Of a stretch of DNA of 64,000 nt, positions 31,613-44,183 are shown piece after piece. The stretch's first letter is position 1. Each line of letters begins with the position of its first letter. A model generated the notes under the pieces. The model was not told where the DNA came from, made no database searches, and saw only the letters and a program-made list of their open reading frames with translations. The DNA comes from Burkholderiales bacterium PBB1 (GTDB taxonomy: Bacteria; Pseudomonadota; Gammaproteobacteria; Burkholderiales; Burkholderiaceae_C): assembly GCA_002255905.1 (NCBI GenBank), contig NKIN01000003.1:37925-101924 (forward strand), given 5' to 3'. A program made the translations under genes and the position numbers.

Positions 31613-32083
31613 TCAGAGGAATCGTTCCAGCAGGCGACGCGAGCGCCGGTCCAGTACACGGCGATCGCGCACGATGAACTGGATGCCATGGCTGTCGGTG
31701 ATCCACAGCGCGCCCTCGTGCAGGCGCCGGATGTCCTCCTCGCCTTTCAGCACGAAGTGGGTGCTGCCGCGGTCGGTCTCCACTTGCCAGATGCTGGGCG
31801 TCGAGAACGTCGACACCGAGACGATCCGGCGGATGACCGGTGTGAGCTCGCGGCTGAGCAGTTCCTCGTCGATCAACGTGCGCAGTGGCGCTGGCAAGTC
31901 GTCGAGGGACTCGATCCAGGTGACTTCGCGGCCATCGGCATCGACCAGCGACAGTCCCTCGTTCGGCGCTGCGATCGGAAACGCCCGAACCGGCACCACT
32001 CCCGCGTGGCGCACCCCGTCGGCCGTGGTCAGCAGCAGTTGCCCATGGGCATCACGCTCCAGCTGGAAGGGCGCTGCGTTCAT
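31613..32083 (-). CDS. Cyanophycin metabolism-associated DUF1854 protein
   Basis: 156 residues. It begins MNAAPFQLERDAHGQLLLT, contains PVRAFPIAAPNEGLSLVD and ends RRVLDRRSRRLLERFL, matching the DUF1854 family found beside cyanophycin genes in proteobacteria. No membrane segment or catalytic motif is visible; the fold looks beta-rich with a helical end. Its ATG overlaps the ABC transporter stop as ATGA, so the two are coupled and presumably act together. Molecular role unknown. Confidence 0.88.
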   Translation of the reverse strand: MNAAPFQLERDAHGQLLLTTADGVRHAGVVPVRAFPIAAPNEGLSLVDADGREVTWIESLDDLPAPLRTLIDEELLSRELTPVIRRIVSVSTFSTPSIWQVETDRGSTHFVLKGEEDIRRLHEGALWITDSHGIQFIVRDRRVLDRRSRRLLERFL

Positions 32084-34446
32084 GCGGGCCGCTCGCTGTG
32101 GCTGGACGTGCCTGCAGCGGCTGCCGACACCGGTGGCTCAGCGGTGCCACTGTGGGCCACCCAGTCATCGGCTGCGGCCTGGCGTGCCTGAGCCTGGTGC
32201 AGGCGCCAGTAGGCTCCGCGCCGGGCCATCAGGTCGTCGTGCGGACCGACCTCGACAATCTGGCCCCGGTCCATCACGACCAGCCGGTCGGCCTTGCGCA
32301 GGGTGGACAACCGGTGCGCGATGGCGATCGTCGTGCGGCCTTGCACCAGGTTGTCGAGCGCGTTCTGGATTTCCTTCTCGGTTTCGGTGTCCACCGACGA
32401 GGTCGCCTCGTCGAGGATCAGGATGCGCGGATCGATCAACAGCGCACGCGCGATGCTGATGCGCTGGCGCTCACCGCCGGACAGCCCTTGGCCACGCTCG
32501 CCGACCAGCGAGTCGTAGCCCTGCGGCAGCCGCAGGATGAACTCGTGCGCATGCGCGGCACGGGCGGCCGCGACGATGTCCGCACGGCTGGCATCGGGGC
32601 GGCCATAGGCGATGTTTTCGGCGATCGTGCCGAAGAACAGGAAAGGTTCCTGCAGCACCAGACCGATGTGGCGCCGGTAGTCGGCCACGCCGTAACGGCG
32701 GATGTCGATGCCGTCGACCTTGATGGCGCCGTCCGTCACGTCGTAGAAGCGGCAGATCAGGTTGACGAGCGTGCTCTTGCCCGAGCCGCTGTGGCCGACC
32801 AGGCCGATCATCTCGCCCGGCTGGATATCGAGCTGCAGCCCCCGGATCACCGAACGGTTGCCGTAGCGAAATCCGATGTCTGCCAACTCGATGCGACCCT
32901 GCGGCTGGGTCAAGGGCACCGGTGAAGCGGGCTCGGGCACGTTCGATACGTGGTCGAGGATGTCGAAGATGCGCTTGGCGCCCGCCGCAGCCTTTTGTGT
33001 CACCGAGACGATGCGGCTCATCGAGTCGAGCCGGCCGTAGAAGCGGCCGATGTACGCGATGAAGGCCGTCAGCACGCCCACGGTGATCTCGTGTTTCGAC
33101 ACTTGCCAGATGCCGAACGCCCAGACCACCAGCAGACCGATCTCGGTCAGCAGCGACACCGTGGGCGTGAACAGCGACCAGGTCTTGTTGAGCCGGTCGT
33201 TGACCTGCAGATTGCTCTGGTTGGCCGCCCTGAAGCGCTGGGCCTCGCGGCCTTCCTGTGCGAAGGCCTTGACCACGCGGATGCCGGGAATGGTGTCGGC
33301 CAGCACATTGGTCACTTCGGACCAGACCCGGTCGATCTTCTCGAAGCCGGTACGCAAGCGGTCGCGCACTGTGTGGATCATCCAGCCGATGAACGGCAGT
33401 GGCAGCAGCGTGACCACCGCCAGCCAGGGATTGATCGAGAAAAGGATCACCGCGGTCATCACGATCATCAGCACATCGGTGGCGAAATCGAGTGCATGTA
33501 GCGACAAAAAGACACAGATGCGATCAGTTTCGCTACCGATGCGGGCCATCAGGTCGCCGGTACGCTTGCCGCCGAAGTAGTCGAGCGACAGCTGCAGCAG
33601 GTGCTCGAAGGTGGTGGTGCGCAGGTCGGCGCCGATCCGTTCGCTGACCAGCGCCAGCAAGTAGGTCCGTGCCCAGCCCAGCCCCCACGCCAAGAGCGCG
33701 GCCAACAGCAGGCCGCCCAAGTACAGCGCGACATGCATGGGATCGATCTGCTGCCCGTTCTGGAACGGAATGAGGATGTCGTCCATCAGCGGGATCGCCA
33801 GATACGGAGGCACCAGGGTGGCGGCGGTGGACGCCAGCGTCAGGGCGAACCCGGCCGCCAGCGGCTTGCGGTAAGGCCGGGCGAAGCGCCACAGGCGCAG
33901 CAGCACCCAGGTCGAGGGCACTGCCTGAACCTCACGGCTGCACACCGGGCAGTCGTCGCTGTCGGGCGGCAGCGGCGCCTTGCATGACGGACACAGCGTG
34001 ACGTCGCCGGTGCCGGAGTCGGCATCGGCGTGCTCGTCCGGTGCCGAGCGCTGCCCCTGCTGCATCTCGAACAGGGTGGCCAGACGCAAGGCGTTGACGT
34101 TTTGCGCCAGGGTGAAACGCCAGATGGCCAGCCGGCCGTGGTCGTCATGGAGTGCCAGGGTGCCGACGCCGCCATGGTCGCTGTGCCGCAAGCGCAGCTG
34201 TCTGGCGGCCGGTTCGTCCAGCCGCCAGGACATCCATGCGGTTGCGTCGGTGCCTGGCGCCTGCTGCCGCGCCAGCAGCCGGTGCTCGGTGAGCACCAGT
34301 TGGCCCGCGGAAAACTGCAGTTGAGGCGTCAAGTCAACCAGCAGCGACGCGAGCGCGTTCTCGTGGGACTCGAGCGGCACAGCGTCCGAGTTCACGGCGA
34401 CGGGCAACCCTGGCACTGGGGCTGGACGGGAGTGGGAATGCTGCAT
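32080..34446 (-). CDS. Cyanophycin metabolism-associated ABC transporter with N-terminal zinc ribbon
   Basis: 788 residues, a half-transporter exporter with an extra N-terminus. Residues about 35-125 resemble a small beta domain (LVLTEHRLLAR, GTLALHDDHGRLAIWRF). A four-Cys zinc ribbon follows (Cys152, Cys155, Cys166, Cys169; CPSC and CPVC). The exporter transmembrane domain of six helices spans about 185-480. The nucleotide-binding domain has Walker A GHSGSGKST, signature LSGGERQ, Walker B ILILDEATSSVD and H-loop AIAHRLS. It is divergent from the cyanophycin synthetase genes over a gap of about 100 bases. The substrate is unknown; such fusions are known from cyanophycin loci. Confidence 0.9.
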   Translation of the reverse strand: MQHSHSRPAPVPGLPVAVNSDAVPLESHENALASLLVDLTPQLQFSAGQLVLTEHRLLARQQAPGTDATAWMSWRLDEPAARQLRLRHSDHGGVGTLALHDDHGRLAIWRFTLAQNVNALRLATLFEMQQGQRSAPDEHADADSGTGDVTLCPSCKAPLPPDSDDCPVCSREVQAVPSTWVLLRLWRFARPYRKPLAAGFALTLASTAATLVPPYLAIPLMDDILIPFQNGQQIDPMHVALYLGGLLLAALLAWGLGWARTYLLALVSERIGADLRTTTFEHLLQLSLDYFGGKRTGDLMARIGSETDRICVFLSLHALDFATDVLMIVMTAVILFSINPWLAVVTLLPLPFIGWMIHTVRDRLRTGFEKIDRVWSEVTNVLADTIPGIRVVKAFAQEGREAQRFRAANQSNLQVNDRLNKTWSLFTPTVSLLTEIGLLVVWAFGIWQVSKHEITVGVLTAFIAYIGRFYGRLDSMSRIVSVTQKAAAGAKRIFDILDHVSNVPEPASPVPLTQPQGRIELADIGFRYGNRSVIRGLQLDIQPGEMIGLVGHSGSGKSTLVNLICRFYDVTDGAIKVDGIDIRRYGVADYRRHIGLVLQEPFLFFGTIAENIAYGRPDASRADIVAAARAAHAHEFILRLPQGYDSLVGERGQGLSGGERQRISIARALLIDPRILILDEATSSVDTETEKEIQNALDNLVQGRTTIAIAHRLSTLRKADRLVVMDRGQIVEVGPHDDLMARRGAYWRLHQAQARQAAADDWVAHSGTAEPPVSAAAAGTSSHSERPA

Positions 34447-34544: not shown

Positions 34545-36860
34545 ATGAAGAAATTCGACGACATACGCCTGCTTCGCATCACCTACCTGCGCGGCCCGAA
34601 CATCTGGACCTACCGCCCCGCGCTGGAGACCTGGCTGGATCTGGGCGAACTGGAAGACCACCCGAGCCACCTGCTGCCGGGCTTCAACGAGCGCCTGGTC
34701 GCGTTGCTGCCGGCCCTGGTCGAGCACCACTGCGGCGTGGGTGAGCGTGGCGGCTTCCTCGAGCGGCTGCAATCGGGCACCTGGGCCGGCCATGTGCTCG
34801 AGCATGTGGTGATCGAGCTGTTGAACCTGGCGGGCATGCCCACGGGCTTCGGCCAGACCCGCAGCACCTCGCAGCGCGGCGTCTACCGCATGGTGTTCCG
34901 GGCGCGCGACGAACACGTGGCCCGCACGGCCCTGACGGTCGGTCACCGCCTGGTGATGTCCGCGATCAACGACGTACCTTTCGATTTGAGCGCCGGCGTA
35001 GAGCAAGTGCGCGAGAAGATCGACGACTGCTACTTCGGTCCCAGCACGGCCAGCATCGTCGCTGCCGCCACCGAGCGGGGCATCCCGCACATCCGGCTGA
35101 ACGCCGGCAATCTGGTGCAACTGGGCCATGGGGCTCGGCAACGCCGCATCTGGACTGCCGAGACCGAGGACACCAGCGCCATTGCCGAAGGCATCGCCAG
35201 CGACAAGGATTTGACCAAGACATTGCTGAAGTCCTGCGGCGTGCCGGTGCCCGAGGGCGAGGTGGTGTCCAGCGCTGCGGCCGCCTGGGAGGCGGCGCAG
35301 GAGATCGGTCTGCCCGTCGTGGTCAAGCCGACCGATGGCAACCACGGCCGTGGCGTCACCCTCGACCTGATGACCCAGGAAGACGTCGAAGCCGCTTATG
35401 CAGTTGCCGAGCCTGAAGGAAGCGATGTCATCGTCGAGCGCTACATCCGTGGCCACGAGCACCGCTTGCTGGTGGTCGGTGGCAAGGTGGTTGCGGCAGC
35501 GCGCGGCGAGTCGGCCTTTGTCACTGCAGATGGCCGATCCAGCGTGCGCGAGCTGATCGAGACCCAGATCAACTGCGATCCTCGCCGCGGCACGACCGAA
35601 GACCACCCCCTCAGTCCCATCGACCTCGCCACCGACGGGGCGGTGATGCTCGATCTGCAGCGCCAGGGCCTGACCCCGAACGATGTGCCCGCTGCCGGCC
35701 GGCGTGTGCTGATCCAGCGCAATGGCAACGTCTCGATCGATTGCACCGATGAAGTTCATCCCGAAGTCGCGCACCAGGTGGCCCTGGCCGCCCGCGTGGT
35801 CGGGCTCGACATCGCCGGCATCGATGTCGTCGCTGAAGACATCTCCAAGCCTTTGCACCTGCAAGGCGGCGCGGTGGTGGAAGTCAACGCCGGACCGGGT
35901 CTGTTGATGCACCTGAGGCCCGCAGAAGGCACGCCGCGCCCGGTGGGTCGCGCGATCGTCGACCATCTGTTCCCGGAAGACGAAGACGATGGCAACAGTG
36001 GGCGCATCGACATCGTCGGCATTGCCGGATCGGTCGGCACGCACACCATGGCCAGGCTGGTCGCCTGGCTGCTGCATTTGAGTGGCCGCCGCGTCGGCCT
36101 GGCCTGCCGCGATGGCTTGTTTCTCGGCAGCCGCCAGATCGACCGCAGCGACGGTGCGCGCTGGGAGGCCGGGCATCGGTTGCTGATGAACCGCAGCGTG
36201 GACGCGGTGGTGGTCGAGAACGGTGCCCCGTCGGTGCTGAACGACGGCTTGGCCTACGACCGCTGCCATGTCGGCGTGGTCACCGATCTGACGCTGCCGG
36301 CCAACGATGCCGCCGCGCTCGCTGCCCACGATGTGTTTGGCTCCGATCAATTGGCCAAGGTGATGCGCACCCAGGTCGATGTGGTGACGACCAGCGGTTT
36401 TGCGGTGTTGAATGCCGCCGACCCGCGGATTGCCGACATGGCCTCGCTGTGTGACGGTGAAGTGATCTTCTATGCCCGCGACGGTGACAACAACGCGCTG
36501 GCGAACCACCGCACTGCCGGTGGGCGCTGTGTCTTCCTGCGTGACGGCTGGGCCGTGCTGGCCGCGGGTTCGGTGGAAACGGTGTGTGCCAATGTCGAGC
36601 ATGCGGGCCGCCGGTTCACCGCGCCCGCCAACACGGCGCTGCCCTCGGCCGATCCGACCGAAGTGCTGCTCGCCTCGATTGCCAGTGCCTGGGCCTTGGG
36701 CATCTCGCCCGAGTTGATGGCTGCCGGCATCGAGACGTTCCCGGTGGTCGTGACCACCGGTGTGATCGCTGCGGTTCAACCCACGACCGAGGTGGCGCCC
36801 CATGCATCGTCCGCGTTACCAGTGGCCCCATCCAACGAACCACTGCTGGCTCCGGTCTGA
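34545..36860 (+). CDS. cphA': Cyanophycin synthetase paralogue with inactive Mur-ligase half (CphA2-like)
   Basis: 771 residues. The N-domain (1 to about 160) carries GHVLEHVVIELL with His83, Glu86, His87 and Glu91. The ATP-grasp G-domain (about 215-460) is intact: VVVKPTDGNHGRG at 258-270, VIVERYI, VVEVNAGPG. The Mur-ligase-like M-domain begins about 488 but its P-loop is GSVGTHTM (495-502) where the partner protein has GTNGKTTT, so the ATP-binding Lys is Thr; the C-terminal ligase domain is also shorter. CphA builds Asp-Arg polymer; an enzyme with only the G site could ligate Asp (or Asp-Arg dipeptides) but not add Arg. It is followed after 45 bases by the full synthetase. Confidence 0.88.
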   Translation: MKKFDDIRLLRITYLRGPNIWTYRPALETWLDLGELEDHPSHLLPGFNERLVALLPALVEHHCGVGERGGFLERLQSGTWAGHVLEHVVIELLNLAGMPTGFGQTRSTSQRGVYRMVFRARDEHVARTALTVGHRLVMSAINDVPFDLSAGVEQVREKIDDCYFGPSTASIVAAATERGIPHIRLNAGNLVQLGHGARQRRIWTAETEDTSAIAEGIASDKDLTKTLLKSCGVPVPEGEVVSSAAAAWEAAQEIGLPVVVKPTDGNHGRGVTLDLMTQEDVEAAYAVAEPEGSDVIVERYIRGHEHRLLVVGGKVVAAARGESAFVTADGRSSVRELIETQINCDPRRGTTEDHPLSPIDLATDGAVMLDLQRQGLTPNDVPAAGRRVLIQRNGNVSIDCTDEVHPEVAHQVALAARVVGLDIAGIDVVAEDISKPLHLQGGAVVEVNAGPGLLMHLRPAEGTPRPVGRAIVDHLFPEDEDDGNSGRIDIVGIAGSVGTHTMARLVAWLLHLSGRRVGLACRDGLFLGSRQIDRSDGARWEAGHRLLMNRSVDAVVVENGAPSVLNDGLAYDRCHVGVVTDLTLPANDAAALAAHDVFGSDQLAKVMRTQVDVVTTSGFAVLNAADPRIADMASLCDGEVIFYARDGDNNALANHRTAGGRCVFLRDGWAVLAAGSVETVCANVEHAGRRFTAPANTALPSADPTEVLLASIASAWALGISPELMAAGIETFPVVVTTGVIAAVQPTTEVAPHASSALPVAPSNEPLLAPV

Positions 36861-36905
36861 CGTAGTTTTGCGCCTGACCGCTGGGTCGGGCAGAAAGCGC
36901 CATCG

Positions 36906-39473
36906 ATGAAAGTCACCCGCGTCCGCGCGCTCCGCGGCCCCAATCTCTGGACGCGCCACACCGCCATCGAGGCGGTGGTCTCCTGCACGGCACCTGAATG
37001 CGTGCTGGAAAACATCGCCGGGTTCGAATCCCGTGTGCGTGCGCTGTTTCCGGCCATCGGCGCCTTGCACGCCTCCAGTCAGCAGCAACCGAAATCGCTG
37101 GCCCACGTTCTCGAGTCGGCGGCGCTGGCCTTGCAGGCGCAGGCCGGCTGCCCGGTCACCTTCAGCCGCACCTCGGCCACCGTCGACCCCGGGGTCTACC
37201 AGGTCGTCGTTGAATACAGCGAAGAGGCTGTCGGCCGACAGGCGTTCGAGCTGGGGCAGGCGCTGGTCAAGGCAGCGGTTCACAACCGGCCGTTCGATGT
37301 CGAAGCGGCCATCCAGCAACTGCGCGCCACCCACGAAGACGTCCGCCTCGGGCCCAGCACCGGGGCCATCGTCGATGCCGCGGCCGCACGCGGCATCCCC
37401 TGGCGCCGACTGACGCAGGGCAGCCTCGTGCAGTTCGGCTGGGGCTCGCGCCAGCGTCGCATCCAGGCTGCCGAGGTCGACGCCACCAGCGCGGTGGCCG
37501 AATCCATTGCGCAGGACAAGGACCTGACCAAGAAGCTGTTGCTGGCCGCCGGCGTGCCGGTGCCGTATGGCCGCCCGGTGTCGAGCGCGGAGGAGGCCTG
37601 GGCGGTGGCCCTGGAAATCGGCCTGCCGGTGGTCGTCAAGCCTCAGGACGGCAACCAGGGCAAGGGCGTCACCGTCAACATCGTGAACCGCGAGCACCTG
37701 GAGATCGCTTACCGCGTGGCCGCCGAGATCGGCGACGTGATGGTCGAGCGCTTCCTGCCAGGCAGCGATTACCGCTTGCTGGTGGTCGGTGACCGCATGG
37801 TGGCCGCCGCCCGGCGCGATCCGCCGCAGGTGCTGGGTGATGGCGAACACACGGTGCGGCAGCTGGTGGATCAGGTCAATGCCGATCCGAAACGCAGCGA
37901 TGGACATTCGACTTCGCTGACCAAGATCCGCTTCGACGACATCGCGGTGGCTCGCCTGGGCGAGCAGGGTCTGACACCGGAATCGGTGCCTGCCAAAGGA
38001 CGCCGCGTCGTGCTTCGCAACAACGCCAACCTGAGCACCGGCGGCACCGCCACCGATGTGACCGACAGCGTGCACCCGGAACTGGCCGCACGTGCGGTGA
38101 CCGCTGCCCAAACCATCGGGCTGCACATCTGCGGCGTCGATGTGGTGTGCGAGAGCGTGCTGCGCCCGTTGGAAGAACAGGGCGGCGGCGTGGTCGAAGT
38201 CAACGCGGCGCCCGGTCTGCGCATGCATCTGGCGCCTTCCTATGGGAAGGGTCGGGCGGTCGGCGAGGCCATGATCGCCAGCCTGTACCCCCATGGCGAG
38301 GACGGCCGGATTCCGGTGGTGGCAGTGACCGGCACGAACGGCAAGACGACCACCGCCCGGCTGATCGCCCACCTGTTTTCGACCAGCGGCTTGCGGGTGG
38401 GCATGACCAACACCGATGGCGTGTATGTCGAAGGACGGCAGATCGACAGCGGTGACTGCAGCGGTCCCAAGAGCGCGCGCAACGTGCTGATGCATCCGGA
38501 TGTCGACGCCGCCGTGTTCGAGACCGCCCGCGGTGGTGTGCTGCGCGAAGGACTCGGCTTCGACCGCTGCCAGGTGGCCGTGGTCACCAACATCGGCAGC
38601 GGCGACCACCTGGGCCTGAACTACATCACCACCGTCGAGGACCTGGCGGTGCTGAAGCGGGTGATCGTGCAGAACGTGGCACCGACCGGCTACGCCGTGC
38701 TCAACGCCGTCGACCCGAATGTGGTGGCGATGGCTGCCAACTGCCCGGGCGAGGTGATCTTCTTTGCGGCCGATCGCCAGCATCCCGTCATGGTCACGCA
38801 CCGCGCTCAGGGACATCGCACCGTCTGTGTCGAGGGTGAGTGGCTGGTCGCGTCGCAAGGCGCCTGGCGCGAACGGGTTGCGCTGCGCGACGTGCCCCTG
38901 ACGCGCAACGGCGCCATCCGTTTCCAGGTCGAGAACGTGATGGCCGCGGTGGCCGCCGCCTGGGGCGCGGGTTTGGCCTGGGACGTCGTGCGACGTGGCC
39001 TGGCCAGCTTCTCGGGCGATGCCGACAACGTGCCCGGCCGTTTCAACGTGATGAACTATCGCGGGGCCACCGTCATTGCCGACTATGGCCACAACCCCGA
39101 CGCGATGCGCGCGTTGGTCTCGGCCGTGGAAGCCCTGCCCGCGCAGCGGCGCACGGTGGTGATCAGCGGCGCGGGCGATCGCCGCGACGAGGACATCCGC
39201 GAGCAGACCCAGATTCTCGGCAATGCCTTCGACGACGTTTTGCTCTACCAGGATGCCTGCCAGCGCGGGCGCGCCGATGGCGAGGTGATCCGGCTGCTGC
39301 GCGAGGGCCTCGAAGGTGCAAAGCGCACGCGGCGCATCGAGGACATCCGAGGCGAATTCACCGCGATCGACCGTGCGCTCGATCGCCTGGAGCCCGGCGA
39401 TCTGTGCCTGGTGCTCGTCGATCAGGTCGACGAAGCCCTGGCGCACCTGTCCAAGAAAGTCGCTGCGGCCTGA
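36906..39473 (+). CDS. cphA: Cyanophycin synthetase (CphA)
   Basis: 855 residues, near the usual CphA1 length. The N-domain is shorter and reads AHVLESAALAL (66-76), lacking the His and Glu seen in the paralogue. The ATP-grasp domain has VVVKPQDGNQGKG (242-254) and VVEVNAAPGL. The Mur-ligase domain has an intact P-loop GTNGKTT (476-482), the FETARGGVLREGLGFD segment and VTNIGSGDHLG. The C-terminal ligase domain includes VIADYGHNPDA and ISGAGDRRDEDI. The enzyme adds Asp to the backbone and Arg to Asp side chains using ATP. It is co-directional with cphA' and probably in one operon. Confidence 0.93.
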   Translation: MKVTRVRALRGPNLWTRHTAIEAVVSCTAPECVLENIAGFESRVRALFPAIGALHASSQQQPKSLAHVLESAALALQAQAGCPVTFSRTSATVDPGVYQVVVEYSEEAVGRQAFELGQALVKAAVHNRPFDVEAAIQQLRATHEDVRLGPSTGAIVDAAAARGIPWRRLTQGSLVQFGWGSRQRRIQAAEVDATSAVAESIAQDKDLTKKLLLAAGVPVPYGRPVSSAEEAWAVALEIGLPVVVKPQDGNQGKGVTVNIVNREHLEIAYRVAAEIGDVMVERFLPGSDYRLLVVGDRMVAAARRDPPQVLGDGEHTVRQLVDQVNADPKRSDGHSTSLTKIRFDDIAVARLGEQGLTPESVPAKGRRVVLRNNANLSTGGTATDVTDSVHPELAARAVTAAQTIGLHICGVDVVCESVLRPLEEQGGGVVEVNAAPGLRMHLAPSYGKGRAVGEAMIASLYPHGEDGRIPVVAVTGTNGKTTTARLIAHLFSTSGLRVGMTNTDGVYVEGRQIDSGDCSGPKSARNVLMHPDVDAAVFETARGGVLREGLGFDRCQVAVVTNIGSGDHLGLNYITTVEDLAVLKRVIVQNVAPTGYAVLNAVDPNVVAMAANCPGEVIFFAADRQHPVMVTHRAQGHRTVCVEGEWLVASQGAWRERVALRDVPLTRNGAIRFQVENVMAAVAAAWGAGLAWDVVRRGLASFSGDADNVPGRFNVMNYRGATVIADYGHNPDAMRALVSAVEALPAQRRTVVISGAGDRRDEDIREQTQILGNAFDDVLLYQDACQRGRADGEVIRLLREGLEGAKRTRRIEDIRGEFTAIDRALDRLEPGDLCLVLVDQVDEALAHLSKKVAAA

Positions 39474-42462: not shown

Positions 42463-43629
42463 TCAGGCCGCCGATCCGATGTGGTGGCTGAAGAAGCGCC
42501 ACATCTCGCGTGTGGCATCGGGGCCGCCCGGGTCGGTGTAGGAGCCTTGCGCGCTTCCGCCCGACCAGGCGTGCCCGCCGCCGTGCACGACCCAGTGCTC
42601 GGCCTGTGGTGTCGGGCTGCCTGCCGAGCGGTAGACCGTTCGGGTATAGCGGCGCCCCTGCGGCGACATGCCGAGCTCCTGAACCGCTGCCCCGGCAGCG
42701 CTGTCGCCGCTGTCCAGTGCATCGCCCAGCGCCATTGCGATGGCATGGGTGCCATTGCCTGGGTGGACGATGCCATCGCCGTCGCCGTGGAACACGATCG
42801 TTGGCCGCGGCAGTTGTTGGCTGGCCTTGCCGATCATGCCGTTGTCCGCTGCACCGGGGTGCGATGTGACCGGCGCTGATGTGGGCGTCCTGGGCCCGTT
42901 TTTCATCGCCGACAGGGCTGACATCAGATCGTTGGCTGCGCCGCTCGCCAGCCCCGAGTGAATGCCGACCGCGGCGTAGATGTCTGGATAGGCCTGGCCG
43001 AGGTTGGCCGCCATCGCACCGCCCGCTGACAGGCCGGCAACGTAGACACGGCGGGCATCGAGCCCGTGCTGGGCGACCACAGCGCGGGTCATGCCGGCCA
43101 GCACGGCCGCCTCGCCCTGGCCGCGCAGTTGATGGTCAGGCTGGAACCAGTTCCAGCATCGCTGCGGGTTGGCATCCTGAGCCTGCGCGGGGTACAGCAC
43201 CGCAAAGCCTTGCTCGCGCCCCAGCGCGCTCATGCCCGTGCCGAGCGCGAAGTCGGCTGGATTCTGGGTGCAGCCATGCAGCATCACCACCAGTGGCAAT
43301 GGCGCACCCGGTGGGGTCTCCGACCCAGGGGGCGGGAGGTCGAGCAGGTAGTCGCGGGTCAATCCGGACTCGCTGTGGGAGCCGGTCAACCTCGAGCCTT
43401 CGACGTTGGCCGGGGCACGCGCCGCGGGTGGGGTGTCGACCGCGGTGTTCATCCACTCTGCCGCGCTGTTCTCGACCACATCACTGTGTGTGGATTGGGC
43501 TGAGGCGGTGGGCAACGGGAGGGACGGGCGCCCCAGCGCTTGCTGGATTGCCTGCGTGGCTTCGGCCAGCTTGCCCAGGCGCGTCAGCCGTGTCACCTCG
43601 GTCATCCAGTGCGGCAGGGTTTCGGACAT
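42463..43629 (-). CDS. PHB depolymerase family esterase
   Basis: 388 residues. A helical N-terminal segment (MTEVTRLTRLGKLAEATQAIQ) is typical of the intracellular-type members of this family, and there is no signal peptide. The catalytic part shows MLHGCTQNPADF, RCWNWF, the lipase box GLSAGG (Ser201), an Asp in PTIVFHGDGDGIVHPGN and His in HGGGHAWSGG. These enzymes cleave polyhydroxybutyrate or short esters. It is the second gene of the operon, 65 bases downstream of the ribbon-helix-helix regulator, and so may be under its control. Confidence 0.88.
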   Translation of the reverse strand: MSETLPHWMTEVTRLTRLGKLAEATQAIQQALGRPSLPLPTASAQSTHSDVVENSAAEWMNTAVDTPPAARAPANVEGSRLTGSHSESGLTRDYLLDLPPPGSETPPGAPLPLVVMLHGCTQNPADFALGTGMSALGREQGFAVLYPAQAQDANPQRCWNWFQPDHQLRGQGEAAVLAGMTRAVVAQHGLDARRVYVAGLSAGGAMAANLGQAYPDIYAAVGIHSGLASGAANDLMSALSAMKNGPRTPTSAPVTSHPGAADNGMIGKASQQLPRPTIVFHGDGDGIVHPGNGTHAIAMALGDALDSGDSAAGAAVQELGMSPQGRRYTRTVYRSAGSPTPQAEHWVVHGGGHAWSGGSAQGSYTDPGGPDATREMWRFFSHHIGSAA

Positions 43630-43694
43630 GGTGACTTTCGTGAGGGTGGTCAGGGCGTGCTGCGGGCAACGAAGCAGATGGACGTTCAGCGTGA

Positions 43695-44183
43695 TCATTT
43701 CAGCCGCCCTGCCAACGCCCGCTTCACTTCGGCGCTGGCGTGCAATGCACCGAGAACCTCGAGCGCCTCGATCGTGTCCAGCGCCAGTTCAGGCGTCACA
43801 TCGGCTGCAATCGACGCCAAGCCCACGACCCGCAGGGTCAGCTTCTGCCGCGCGTGCTGCAAGGCCTGCAGCTCCTGGCGGCTGATGTGCTGCAGGCCGA
43901 GCACCAGCATCTTGCGGGCCACCACCTGCTTCAAGGCGTCGCTGTGCTGGGTCAGTTGGTTGCGAATGGCGGTGCGGATGAAATCGGTGCGGTTGCTGTA
44001 GAAACCTTCACTGACCAGCAGATCGACCTGCCCCAGGTCGACATGTCCGAGGTTGATGGTGATCTTCTCCGAATCGGCGGCCTTCGCCGCGCGGTTGGGC
44101 TTCGCCTCGGGCGCCTCGTTCAGCTTGCGCGCGCTGGCTCGAGCGCGCGGGCTCGGGGTGCGGGCAGCGATGGCGGCATTCAT
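43695..44183 (-). CDS. Ribbon-helix-helix (CopG-like) transcriptional regulator
   Basis: 162 residues. After a basic Ala/Arg tail (1-40) comes a ribbon-helix-helix unit: strand KITINLGHVDLGQVDLLV, helix YSNRTDFIRTAIRNQL. The C-terminal half is helical (about 85-160) and may dimerise or bind a ligand; it lacks obvious metal ligands of NikR. The ATG at 44183 is chosen over TTG 44192. Three copies of ACCATCC-type half-sites lie immediately upstream (44199-44227), an arrangement fitting autoregulation. It is the first gene before the PHB-depolymerase-type esterase operon. Confidence 0.82.
   Translation of the reverse strand: MNAAIAARTPSPRARASARKLNEAPEAKPNRAAKAADSEKITINLGHVDLGQVDLLVSEGFYSNRTDFIRTAIRNQLTQHSDALKQVVARKMLVLGLQHISRQELQALQHARQKLTLRVVGLASIAADVTPELALDTIEALEVLGALHASAEVKRALAGRLK

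Follow-up and report, generated by a model that had tools for sequence, protein, structure and literature searches.

The window analysed here, a stretch of 64,000 nucleotides (nt) from Burkholderiales bacterium PBB1 (contig NKIN01000003.1), carries two adjacent paralogues of the cyanophycin synthetase CphA1, called P1 and P2 below, which have lost complementary active sites. The explanation that appears best supported, with a probability of roughly 0.6, is that P1 cuts cyanophycin chains into primers on which a primer-dependent P2 would build, the pair being a two-part enzyme that arose when a three-site synthetase was duplicated in tandem once. The metal site in the N-terminal (N) domain of P1 would cleave the polymer into short pieces. 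P2, which lacks the N-site protease and would depend on primers, would then extend them, its ATP-grasp (G) domain adding aspartate and its Mur-ligase (M) domain the side chain. The dead M core of P1 would have been retained because it lines one side of the cutting cleft and keeps the N domain soluble. The two genes are as follows.

34545..36860, + strand: P1, CphA1 paralogue of 771 amino acids (aa), in which the N site is intact, the G domain altered, the M core catalytically dead and the M lid missing
36906..39473, + strand: P2, CphA1 paralogue of 855 aa, with N site lost, G-domain aspartate pocket and M site intact, and His267 changed to Gln

Both open reading frames (ORFs) were found again at these positions, adjacent on the same strand with a gap of 45 nt, and all the residues named in them by the original prediction, a note made from the sequence, read as it had said. 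From profile matches, both are cyanophycin synthetase homologues. P1 scores 1008 bits with NF010623 (cut-off 877) and 695 bits with TIGR02068, under the cut-off of 850, and P2 reaches 1254 bits and 987 bits, the latter over that cut-off. Among Pfam families, the N-terminal and ATP-grasp ones match P1 but neither Mur-ligase family does (no Mur_ligase_C); all of them match P2. The comparison of predicted structures proposed in the original prediction places both proteins nearest to CphA1 by Foldseek. The P1 model (predicted local distance difference test, pLDDT, 88) gives TM scores of 0.85/0.90 to 7wae_C, against 0.63/0.75 for the best CphA2, and the P2 model (pLDDT 84) gives 0.88/0.86. Residue numbers below are those of TeCphA1/SuCphA1 unless P1 or P2 is named, and residue roles are taken from PMC9262961 and PMC9427784, these papers and the others cited being quoted from the accessible part of their text.

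In SuCphA1, from Synechocystis, a metal ion (tentatively zinc) is held in the N site by His79, His83 and Cys59, with Glu82 as the base and His57, Phe67 and Glu87 as supporting residues (PMC9262961). The corresponding features of the pair are listed here.

34725..34733, + strand: P1 His61 and Cys63, counterparts of the supporting His57 and the metal ligand Cys59 (PMC9262961)
34791..34817, + strand: P1 His83-x-x-Glu86-His87 and Glu91, the HxxEH metal site by alignment (His83 at 34791, Glu91 at 34815-34817)
37104..37130, + strand: P2 remnant of the HxxEH helix, with His67 (37104), Glu70, Ser71 and Ala75 (37128-37130), no Cys, and the Phe/Arg loop deleted

His83, Glu86, His87 and Glu91 of P1 had been proposed to lie on the N-domain metal site. 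The HMMER alignment indeed superposes them on that of SuCphA1, with His83/Glu86/His87 on His79/Glu82/His83, and the alignment of P1 with chain 7txv, the E82Q mutant of SuCphA1, differs exactly at that residue. The third metal ligand, Cys63, and His61, both unnamed in the original prediction, are kept as well. P2 has neither the His57 nor the Cys59 counterpart, and the loop bearing Phe67 and Arg70 is also gone.

The conservation of this anatomy was directly observed in a survey covering 399 genomes sampled from the window's order (Burkholderiales), 148 of which match the PF18921 profile (two matches in 131, one in ten, three in three and four in four). One hundred regions from 97 of these 148 genomes, picked to spread over families, were read and their ORFs classed by best BLAST match. 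This gave 92 P1 rows and 94 rows of the P2 class, a few of the 94 belonging elsewhere. The totals of 105 P1 and 101 P2 used below combine these survey rows with the window and with 12 P1 and 11 P2 of a family outside the order, f141. The gappy P1 of L130 was excluded from trees and identity means and retained among the 105. Left out of the P2 counts (the 101, positions 603/607 and the identities) were the P2 of L072, which is in two pieces, a small M-domain-like ORF of L088, and the rows of L053 and L055, whose best match is P2 yet which belong to another clade. An earlier set of 93 P2 rows, used for the synteny and residue tally, still includes the L072, L053 and L055 rows and not that of L088. 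L265 and L266 are one gene, counted once, and the P2 of G792 is incomplete and uncounted.

All eight N-site residues (H57, C59, F67, R70, H79, E82, H83, E87) are present in 105/105 P1, window included, and together in 0/101 P2. C59 is found in none of the 101 P2, including that of L070, in which HxxEH is still readable. Strictly invariant columns make up 22 of the 149 of the P1 N domain, and all eight named ones are among them (hypergeometric 6e-8, relatedness ignored). R70 and Y110, which contact the chain in the N site, are kept in P1; Glu90, another chain contact, is mostly Asn there and is variable among CphA1 as well. This retained site suggests that P1 may bind a metal and act as an endo-cyanophycinase.

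The M domain shows the converse situation.

36027..36050, + strand: P1 broken Mur-ligase P-loop GSVGTHTM, with Thr499 and His500
36366..36380, + strand: P1 Arg608...Asp612, equivalent to SuCphA1 positions 603 and 607, which contact N-site-bound cyanophycin (PMC9262961); invariant in P1
38331..38351, + strand: P2 intact Mur-ligase P-loop GTNGKTT
38604..38609, + strand: P2 Asp567-His568, equivalent to SuCphA1 Asp585-His586, kept

Among K499, T500, E558, D585 and H586, only E558 remains in the window's P1, which has no Asp585-His586 and no C-terminal lid. The five residues are complete in 11/105 P1 versus 101/101 P2, and the lid residues R731 and H748 are kept in 101/101 P2. The losses are thus complementary, as had been proposed, and in the loci read they co-occur across the window's order. 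Mean pairwise identity in P1 is 0.655 for the N domain, 0.668 for the G domain and 0.473 for the M core; in P2 the values are 0.585, 0.713 and 0.684, with 0.713 for the lid. While the rest of the P1 M core drifts, position 603 is Arg and 607 is Asp in 104/104 rows; in P2, 603 is mostly Arg (79/90) and 607 mostly Gln or Glu. In SuCphA1 these two M-domain residues contact the chain bound in the N site, and an N domain on its own is insoluble unless its M-facing loop is changed (PMC9262961). It may be for these two reasons, as cleft wall and as solubilizing partner of the N domain, that P1 keeps a dead M core.

The gene order is equally constant. P1 lies upstream of P2 on the same strand, in tandem, in 90/90 loci holding both, with a median gap of 43 nt (89 loci). 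Of the other ten loci, five have a lone conventional CphA1 (L088, L089, L110, L111, L127), three hold a second kind of CphA locus (L053, L055, L060) and two, L043 and L096, have a P1 at a contig edge. A lone intact P2 was found at none of the loci read. The drifting M core, its repeated loss and one genome, G376, in which only a P1 remnant is held could be explained if P1 were a decaying relic kept by chance next to a functional P2. This is extremely improbable in view of the N site invariant in 105/105 and of the tandem order. The lone P1 of L043 and L096 stand at contig edges, and the G376 remnant is not accompanied by a P2. A pseudogene status of P1 is ruled out by the same invariance and synteny. 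In G376 (locus L288), the P1 remnant is interrupted by stops and there is no P2 match, so that P1 and P2 seem, from the sequence, to have been lost together. As separate observations, the five lone conventional CphA1 are followed by an M-domain-like ORF of 576-720 aa, and cyanophycinase is present in the same genomes; the divergent second CphA locus of L053, L055 and L060, found in pair-bearing genomes, has Gln267, Arg or Glu in place of His79, and an adjoining cyanophycinase.

Trees were built by a quick method, with support from the Shimodaira–Hasegawa-like approximate likelihood ratio test (SH-aLRT) only. In the G-domain tree (101 rows), P1 (38 rows, support 100, starred) and P2 (37 rows, support 93) are sisters joined at 96 (starred), and CphA2 forms a separate clade (100, starred); the sister-clade origin of the pair is directly supported. 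In the P1 tree (104 rows), the 11 rows with a complete M core are scattered, which requires at least six changes, four of them forced by starred branches, so that the M loss was repeated. All eleven share Val501, from which the M domain looks ancestral and repeatedly lost. That full-length P1 recovered the M site through exchange with P2 is disfavoured, since P2 has Thr where the eleven share Val501. Changes at R323, in the loop and at R458 are already present in all eleven, and the aspartate pocket would thus have gone first.

This pocket belongs to the G domain, the main features of which are the following.

35325..35354, + strand: P1 loop KPTDGNHGRG with Lys261 and His267, kept
35505..35507, + strand: P1 Gly321 replacing the aspartate-binding Arg323
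35724..35735, + strand: P1 GNVS, a shortened loop where CphA1 has ANLSTGG
35904..35906, + strand: P1 Leu454 replacing the aspartate-binding Arg458
37656..37658, + strand: P2 Gln251 replacing His267

In TeCphA1, R323, the 396-399 stretch, R458 and Asn394 form part of the pocket for the incoming aspartate (PMC9427784). P1 had been credited with an intact ATP-grasp site. It does retain the ATP residues, yet in the window it has lost most of the aspartate pocket (R323G, residues 396-399 deleted, R458L). In the P1 of the order, R323 is Gly in 89/92, 396-399 are deleted in 92/92 and R458 is Leu in 89/92. Among all 105 rows, R323, S396 or R458 is kept only by the gappy L130 (R323). With most of the pocket gone, P1 is not expected to perform the normal backbone step with aspartate, which appears unlikely from these residues. 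The suggestion that P1 adds Asp is thereby not supported, and P1 is ruled out as an Asp-adding ligase, though Asn394 still aligns in 86/92 P1, in an uncertain part of the alignment bordering the deletion. P2 keeps R323, N394, S396 and R458 in 101/101. In the window's order, the ATP-grasp domain of P1 still looks capable of ATP binding and carboxylate activation, the ATP-binding and catalytic residues K220, K261, H267, R309, D431 and E450 being kept together in 90/93 P1.

Such a domain could still be a ligase of another type. P1 had also been suggested to ligate dipeptides, as it would if it were a convergent CphA2, whose G domain joins beta-Asp-Arg dipeptides and whose M site was lost since arginine addition was unneeded. 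CphA2 enzymes (PDB 7TA5, 8FXI) lack the M P-loop and M lid (PMC9427784), and most P1 have likewise lost both and carry a non-Arg residue at 458. CphA2 lacks the N-site motif (PMC9262961), which P1 keeps. Four cyanobacterial ORFs of 638-645 aa (L229-L232), taken as CphA2 from their size, identity and missing P-loop, served for comparison. In all four, R323 and the omega loop are kept, position 267 is Lys, position 458 is Tyr, Asn or Phe, and the N site is missing. The non-Arg 458 is all that P1 has in common with them; H267, R323 and the loop set it apart. The six conserved ATP/catalytic residues speak for dipeptide ligation, and it is possible in view of the R458 loss common to CphA2-like sequences. 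It is not favoured, given these differences and the G-site damage found in f141 P1, in which the N site stays; in addition, no dipeptide-making cyanophycinase was found in the window's genome. A convergent CphA2 is thus quite unlikely, and membership of P1 in CphA2 itself is ruled out by the four sequences, the separate clade and the N site kept in 105/105.

A related alternative is that P1 both cuts and re-joins, its N domain cleaving the chain and its opened-pocket G domain linking pieces or dipeptides to chain ends, while P2 carries out bulk synthesis. In the window's order, the invariant N site, the conserved ATP-grasp catalytic residues and the uniformly altered acceptor pocket are consistent with it, and the conservation of G against a drifting M within these proteins points to a G domain that is still functional. 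The f141 family loses G-site residues in P1 yet keeps the pair, and the re-joining role appears very unlikely.

Family f141 came from a class-wide sample of 369 genomes, 18 of which match: the window's genome, two of its family and 15 from other orders. Among these 15, both P1 and P2 occur in three, all from f141, and the other 12 have a single match. In f141 itself 12/36 genomes match. Its P1 have an intact N site, a dead M domain and a lost His267, each in 12/12, several of the twelve being near-copies; the other five ATP/catalytic G residues remain in ten of the twelve. The P1 of G626 has lost the metal-binding Glu450 besides His267, and in that of G505 the KPxDGNHGRG and VEVNA stretches are wholly absent, Glu450 included. 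These two are the strongest sign, at the level of sequence, that P1 is retained for cutting. The f141 P2 keep pocket and M site in 11/11 full copies. Across the f141 loci (L245, L246, L265-L275), P1 has a damaged G site and a dead M domain next to an untouched N site.

Known synthetases give each half of the pair a precedent. SuCphA1, which has an active N domain (PMC9262961, PDB 7LG5, 7TXV), shares the three-domain fold; its C-x19-HxxEH site recurs in P1 and its G aspartate pocket and M site in P2. It differs in having three sites in one chain, where two genes are found here and P1 is without most of the aspartate pocket. TmCphA1 from Tatumella (PDB 7LGN), which is primer-dependent, resembles P2 in lacking the N site and in its intact G aspartate pocket and M site. 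However, it was studied as a lone enzyme and its 7lgn chain has His267, whereas P2 has an upstream P1 (90 loci) and Gln267. The lost N site rules out P2 as a full three-site synthetase. For synthetases without the N site, the likely primers were considered to be residual chains or other small molecules (PMC9262961). TmCphA1 no longer needs a primer when it is supplied with SuCphA1 inactivated in G, in M or in both, or with the N domain of SuCphA1 alone, and a heterodimer in which the other protomer carries the working N site loses only some activity (PMC9262961). The P1–P2 pair looks, by analogy, like nature's version of these in-trans experiments, in which case P1 could prime P2 and the two might even share a mixed oligomer. 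Within the division of labour first proposed, one protein making primers and the other building thus appears the best reading from sequence; addition of Asp by P1 is the part that did not hold. A dedicated cutter beside a builder, if true, would explain how the polymer is started, and perhaps broken down, in beta-proteobacteria, and an assay of either gene alone could miss the activity.

Several observations weigh against this cutter-and-builder scheme. The six ATP/catalytic G residues kept in P1 of the order would be needless for a pure cutter, and in f141 ten of twelve P1 have lost only His267 of the six, full G decay resting on two genomes. In P2, position 267 is Gln in 94/101, and the H267A mutation inactivates the SuCphA1 G domain (PMC9262961). 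His267 is present in both the 7lgm (Acinetobacter baylyi by PDB title) and 7lgn chains. The seven P2 with His267 include five of the eleven f141 P2, where P1 lost its own. The lone synthetase of L060 also carries Gln267, and apart from Glu215 its remaining G and M residues are kept, a case which suggests that Gln is tolerated there. Glu215, which in TeCphA1 touches the last Arg of the chain (PMC9427784), is replaced in both P1 and P2, so that the side chain may not be arginine. Finally, according to two reviews, both citing Adames 2013, the cphA genes of R. eutropha H16 reportedly gave no cyanophycin on overexpression in their own host or in E. coli (PMC8560796), nor did the wild type (PMC11362209); the H16 cphA genes may not be a P1–P2 pair.

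The changes at Glu215 and at 267 in most P2, the reports of no cyanophycin from R. eutropha (PMC8560796, PMC11362209) and the lack of matches to the tested cyanophycin-degrading families in the window's genome could also mean that the product of the pair is another polymer or bears another side chain, to which cyanophycin chemistry would not directly apply. P2 keeps R323, N394, S396, R458 and the M catalytic residues, P1 keeps the chain contacts R70 and Y110, and neighbouring genes are named cyanophycin-associated by NCBI; a different product seems rather improbable.

If P1 cuts cyanophycin for priming, it may, judging from gene content, also help to turn the polymer over as a depolymerase, because genomes with the pair mostly lack cyanophycinase. 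Beta-proteobacteria account for 903 of the 1,614 CphA1-encoding genomes, and cyanophycinase occurs in 2.8% of these 903, a scarcity that the authors call unanticipated (PMC10206079). In the order survey, cyanophycinase was over cut-off in 26/399 genomes: 9/10 with one PF18921 match, 12/138 with two or more, and five with none. The tenth single-match genome is G376. The contrast of 9/9 with 12/138 is to be read knowing that the nine come from two genera, that five were read (L088, L089, L110, L111, L127) and the other four classed by genus and match count, and that the 138 were classed by match count alone; its Fisher value does not express how probable the biological link is. Six of the twelve cyanophycinase genomes with at least two matches have three or four, and in three of these six, G055, G249 and G365, the cyanophycinase adjoins a CphA locus of the second kind. 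The window's genome, a 99.6% complete draft, has no match to Peptidase_S51, TIGR02069, Asparaginase_2, isoaspartyl dipeptidase or AstE_AspA_hybrid, PF04952 being a weak test for the CphZ dipeptide hydrolase as a short model of 76 positions. Endo-cutting by itself would not yield dipeptides. A bolder and, on balance, unlikely proposal makes P1 a free-standing endo-cyanophycinase that arose from a dead synthetase and that, besides priming, does the depolymerising work missing in beta-proteobacteria. In the window's order the altered ATP-grasp domain might then also link pieces to an acceptor other than aspartate, and the pair would edit chain length through cutting and re-joining.

Adjacent cphA genes have been reported before. 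Accumulibacter and a "Group 1" cluster have two, evenly expressed in Accumulibacter, and the "Group 1" cluster includes an ABC (ATP-binding cassette) transporter and no cyanophycinase (PMC10687191). Sideroxydans has adjacent "CphA1, CphA2" and no cyanophycinase on its contigs (PMC5178258), "CphA2" there perhaps not meaning the cyanobacterial type. Complementary active-site loss is unmentioned in the accessible text of both papers, and no description of it was found in the open-access literature, key older papers lying outside that search.

An ABC transporter also neighbours the pair in the window, where NCBI labels the two genes at 31613-34446, divergent from P1, as cyanophycin-associated.

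31613..32083, - strand: DUF1854 protein, cyanophycin metabolism-associated (NF052234; 233 bits, cut-off 150)
32080..34446, - strand: ABC transporter, cyanophycin metabolism-associated (NF052233; 1397 bits, cut-off 880), divergent from P1

A fragment homologous to the transporter occurs at 86/92 P1 loci, in divergent orientation to P1 in 83. A few genes downstream of the pair, the window also encodes a polyhydroxybutyrate (PHB) depolymerase-type esterase (PF10503) at 42463-43698.

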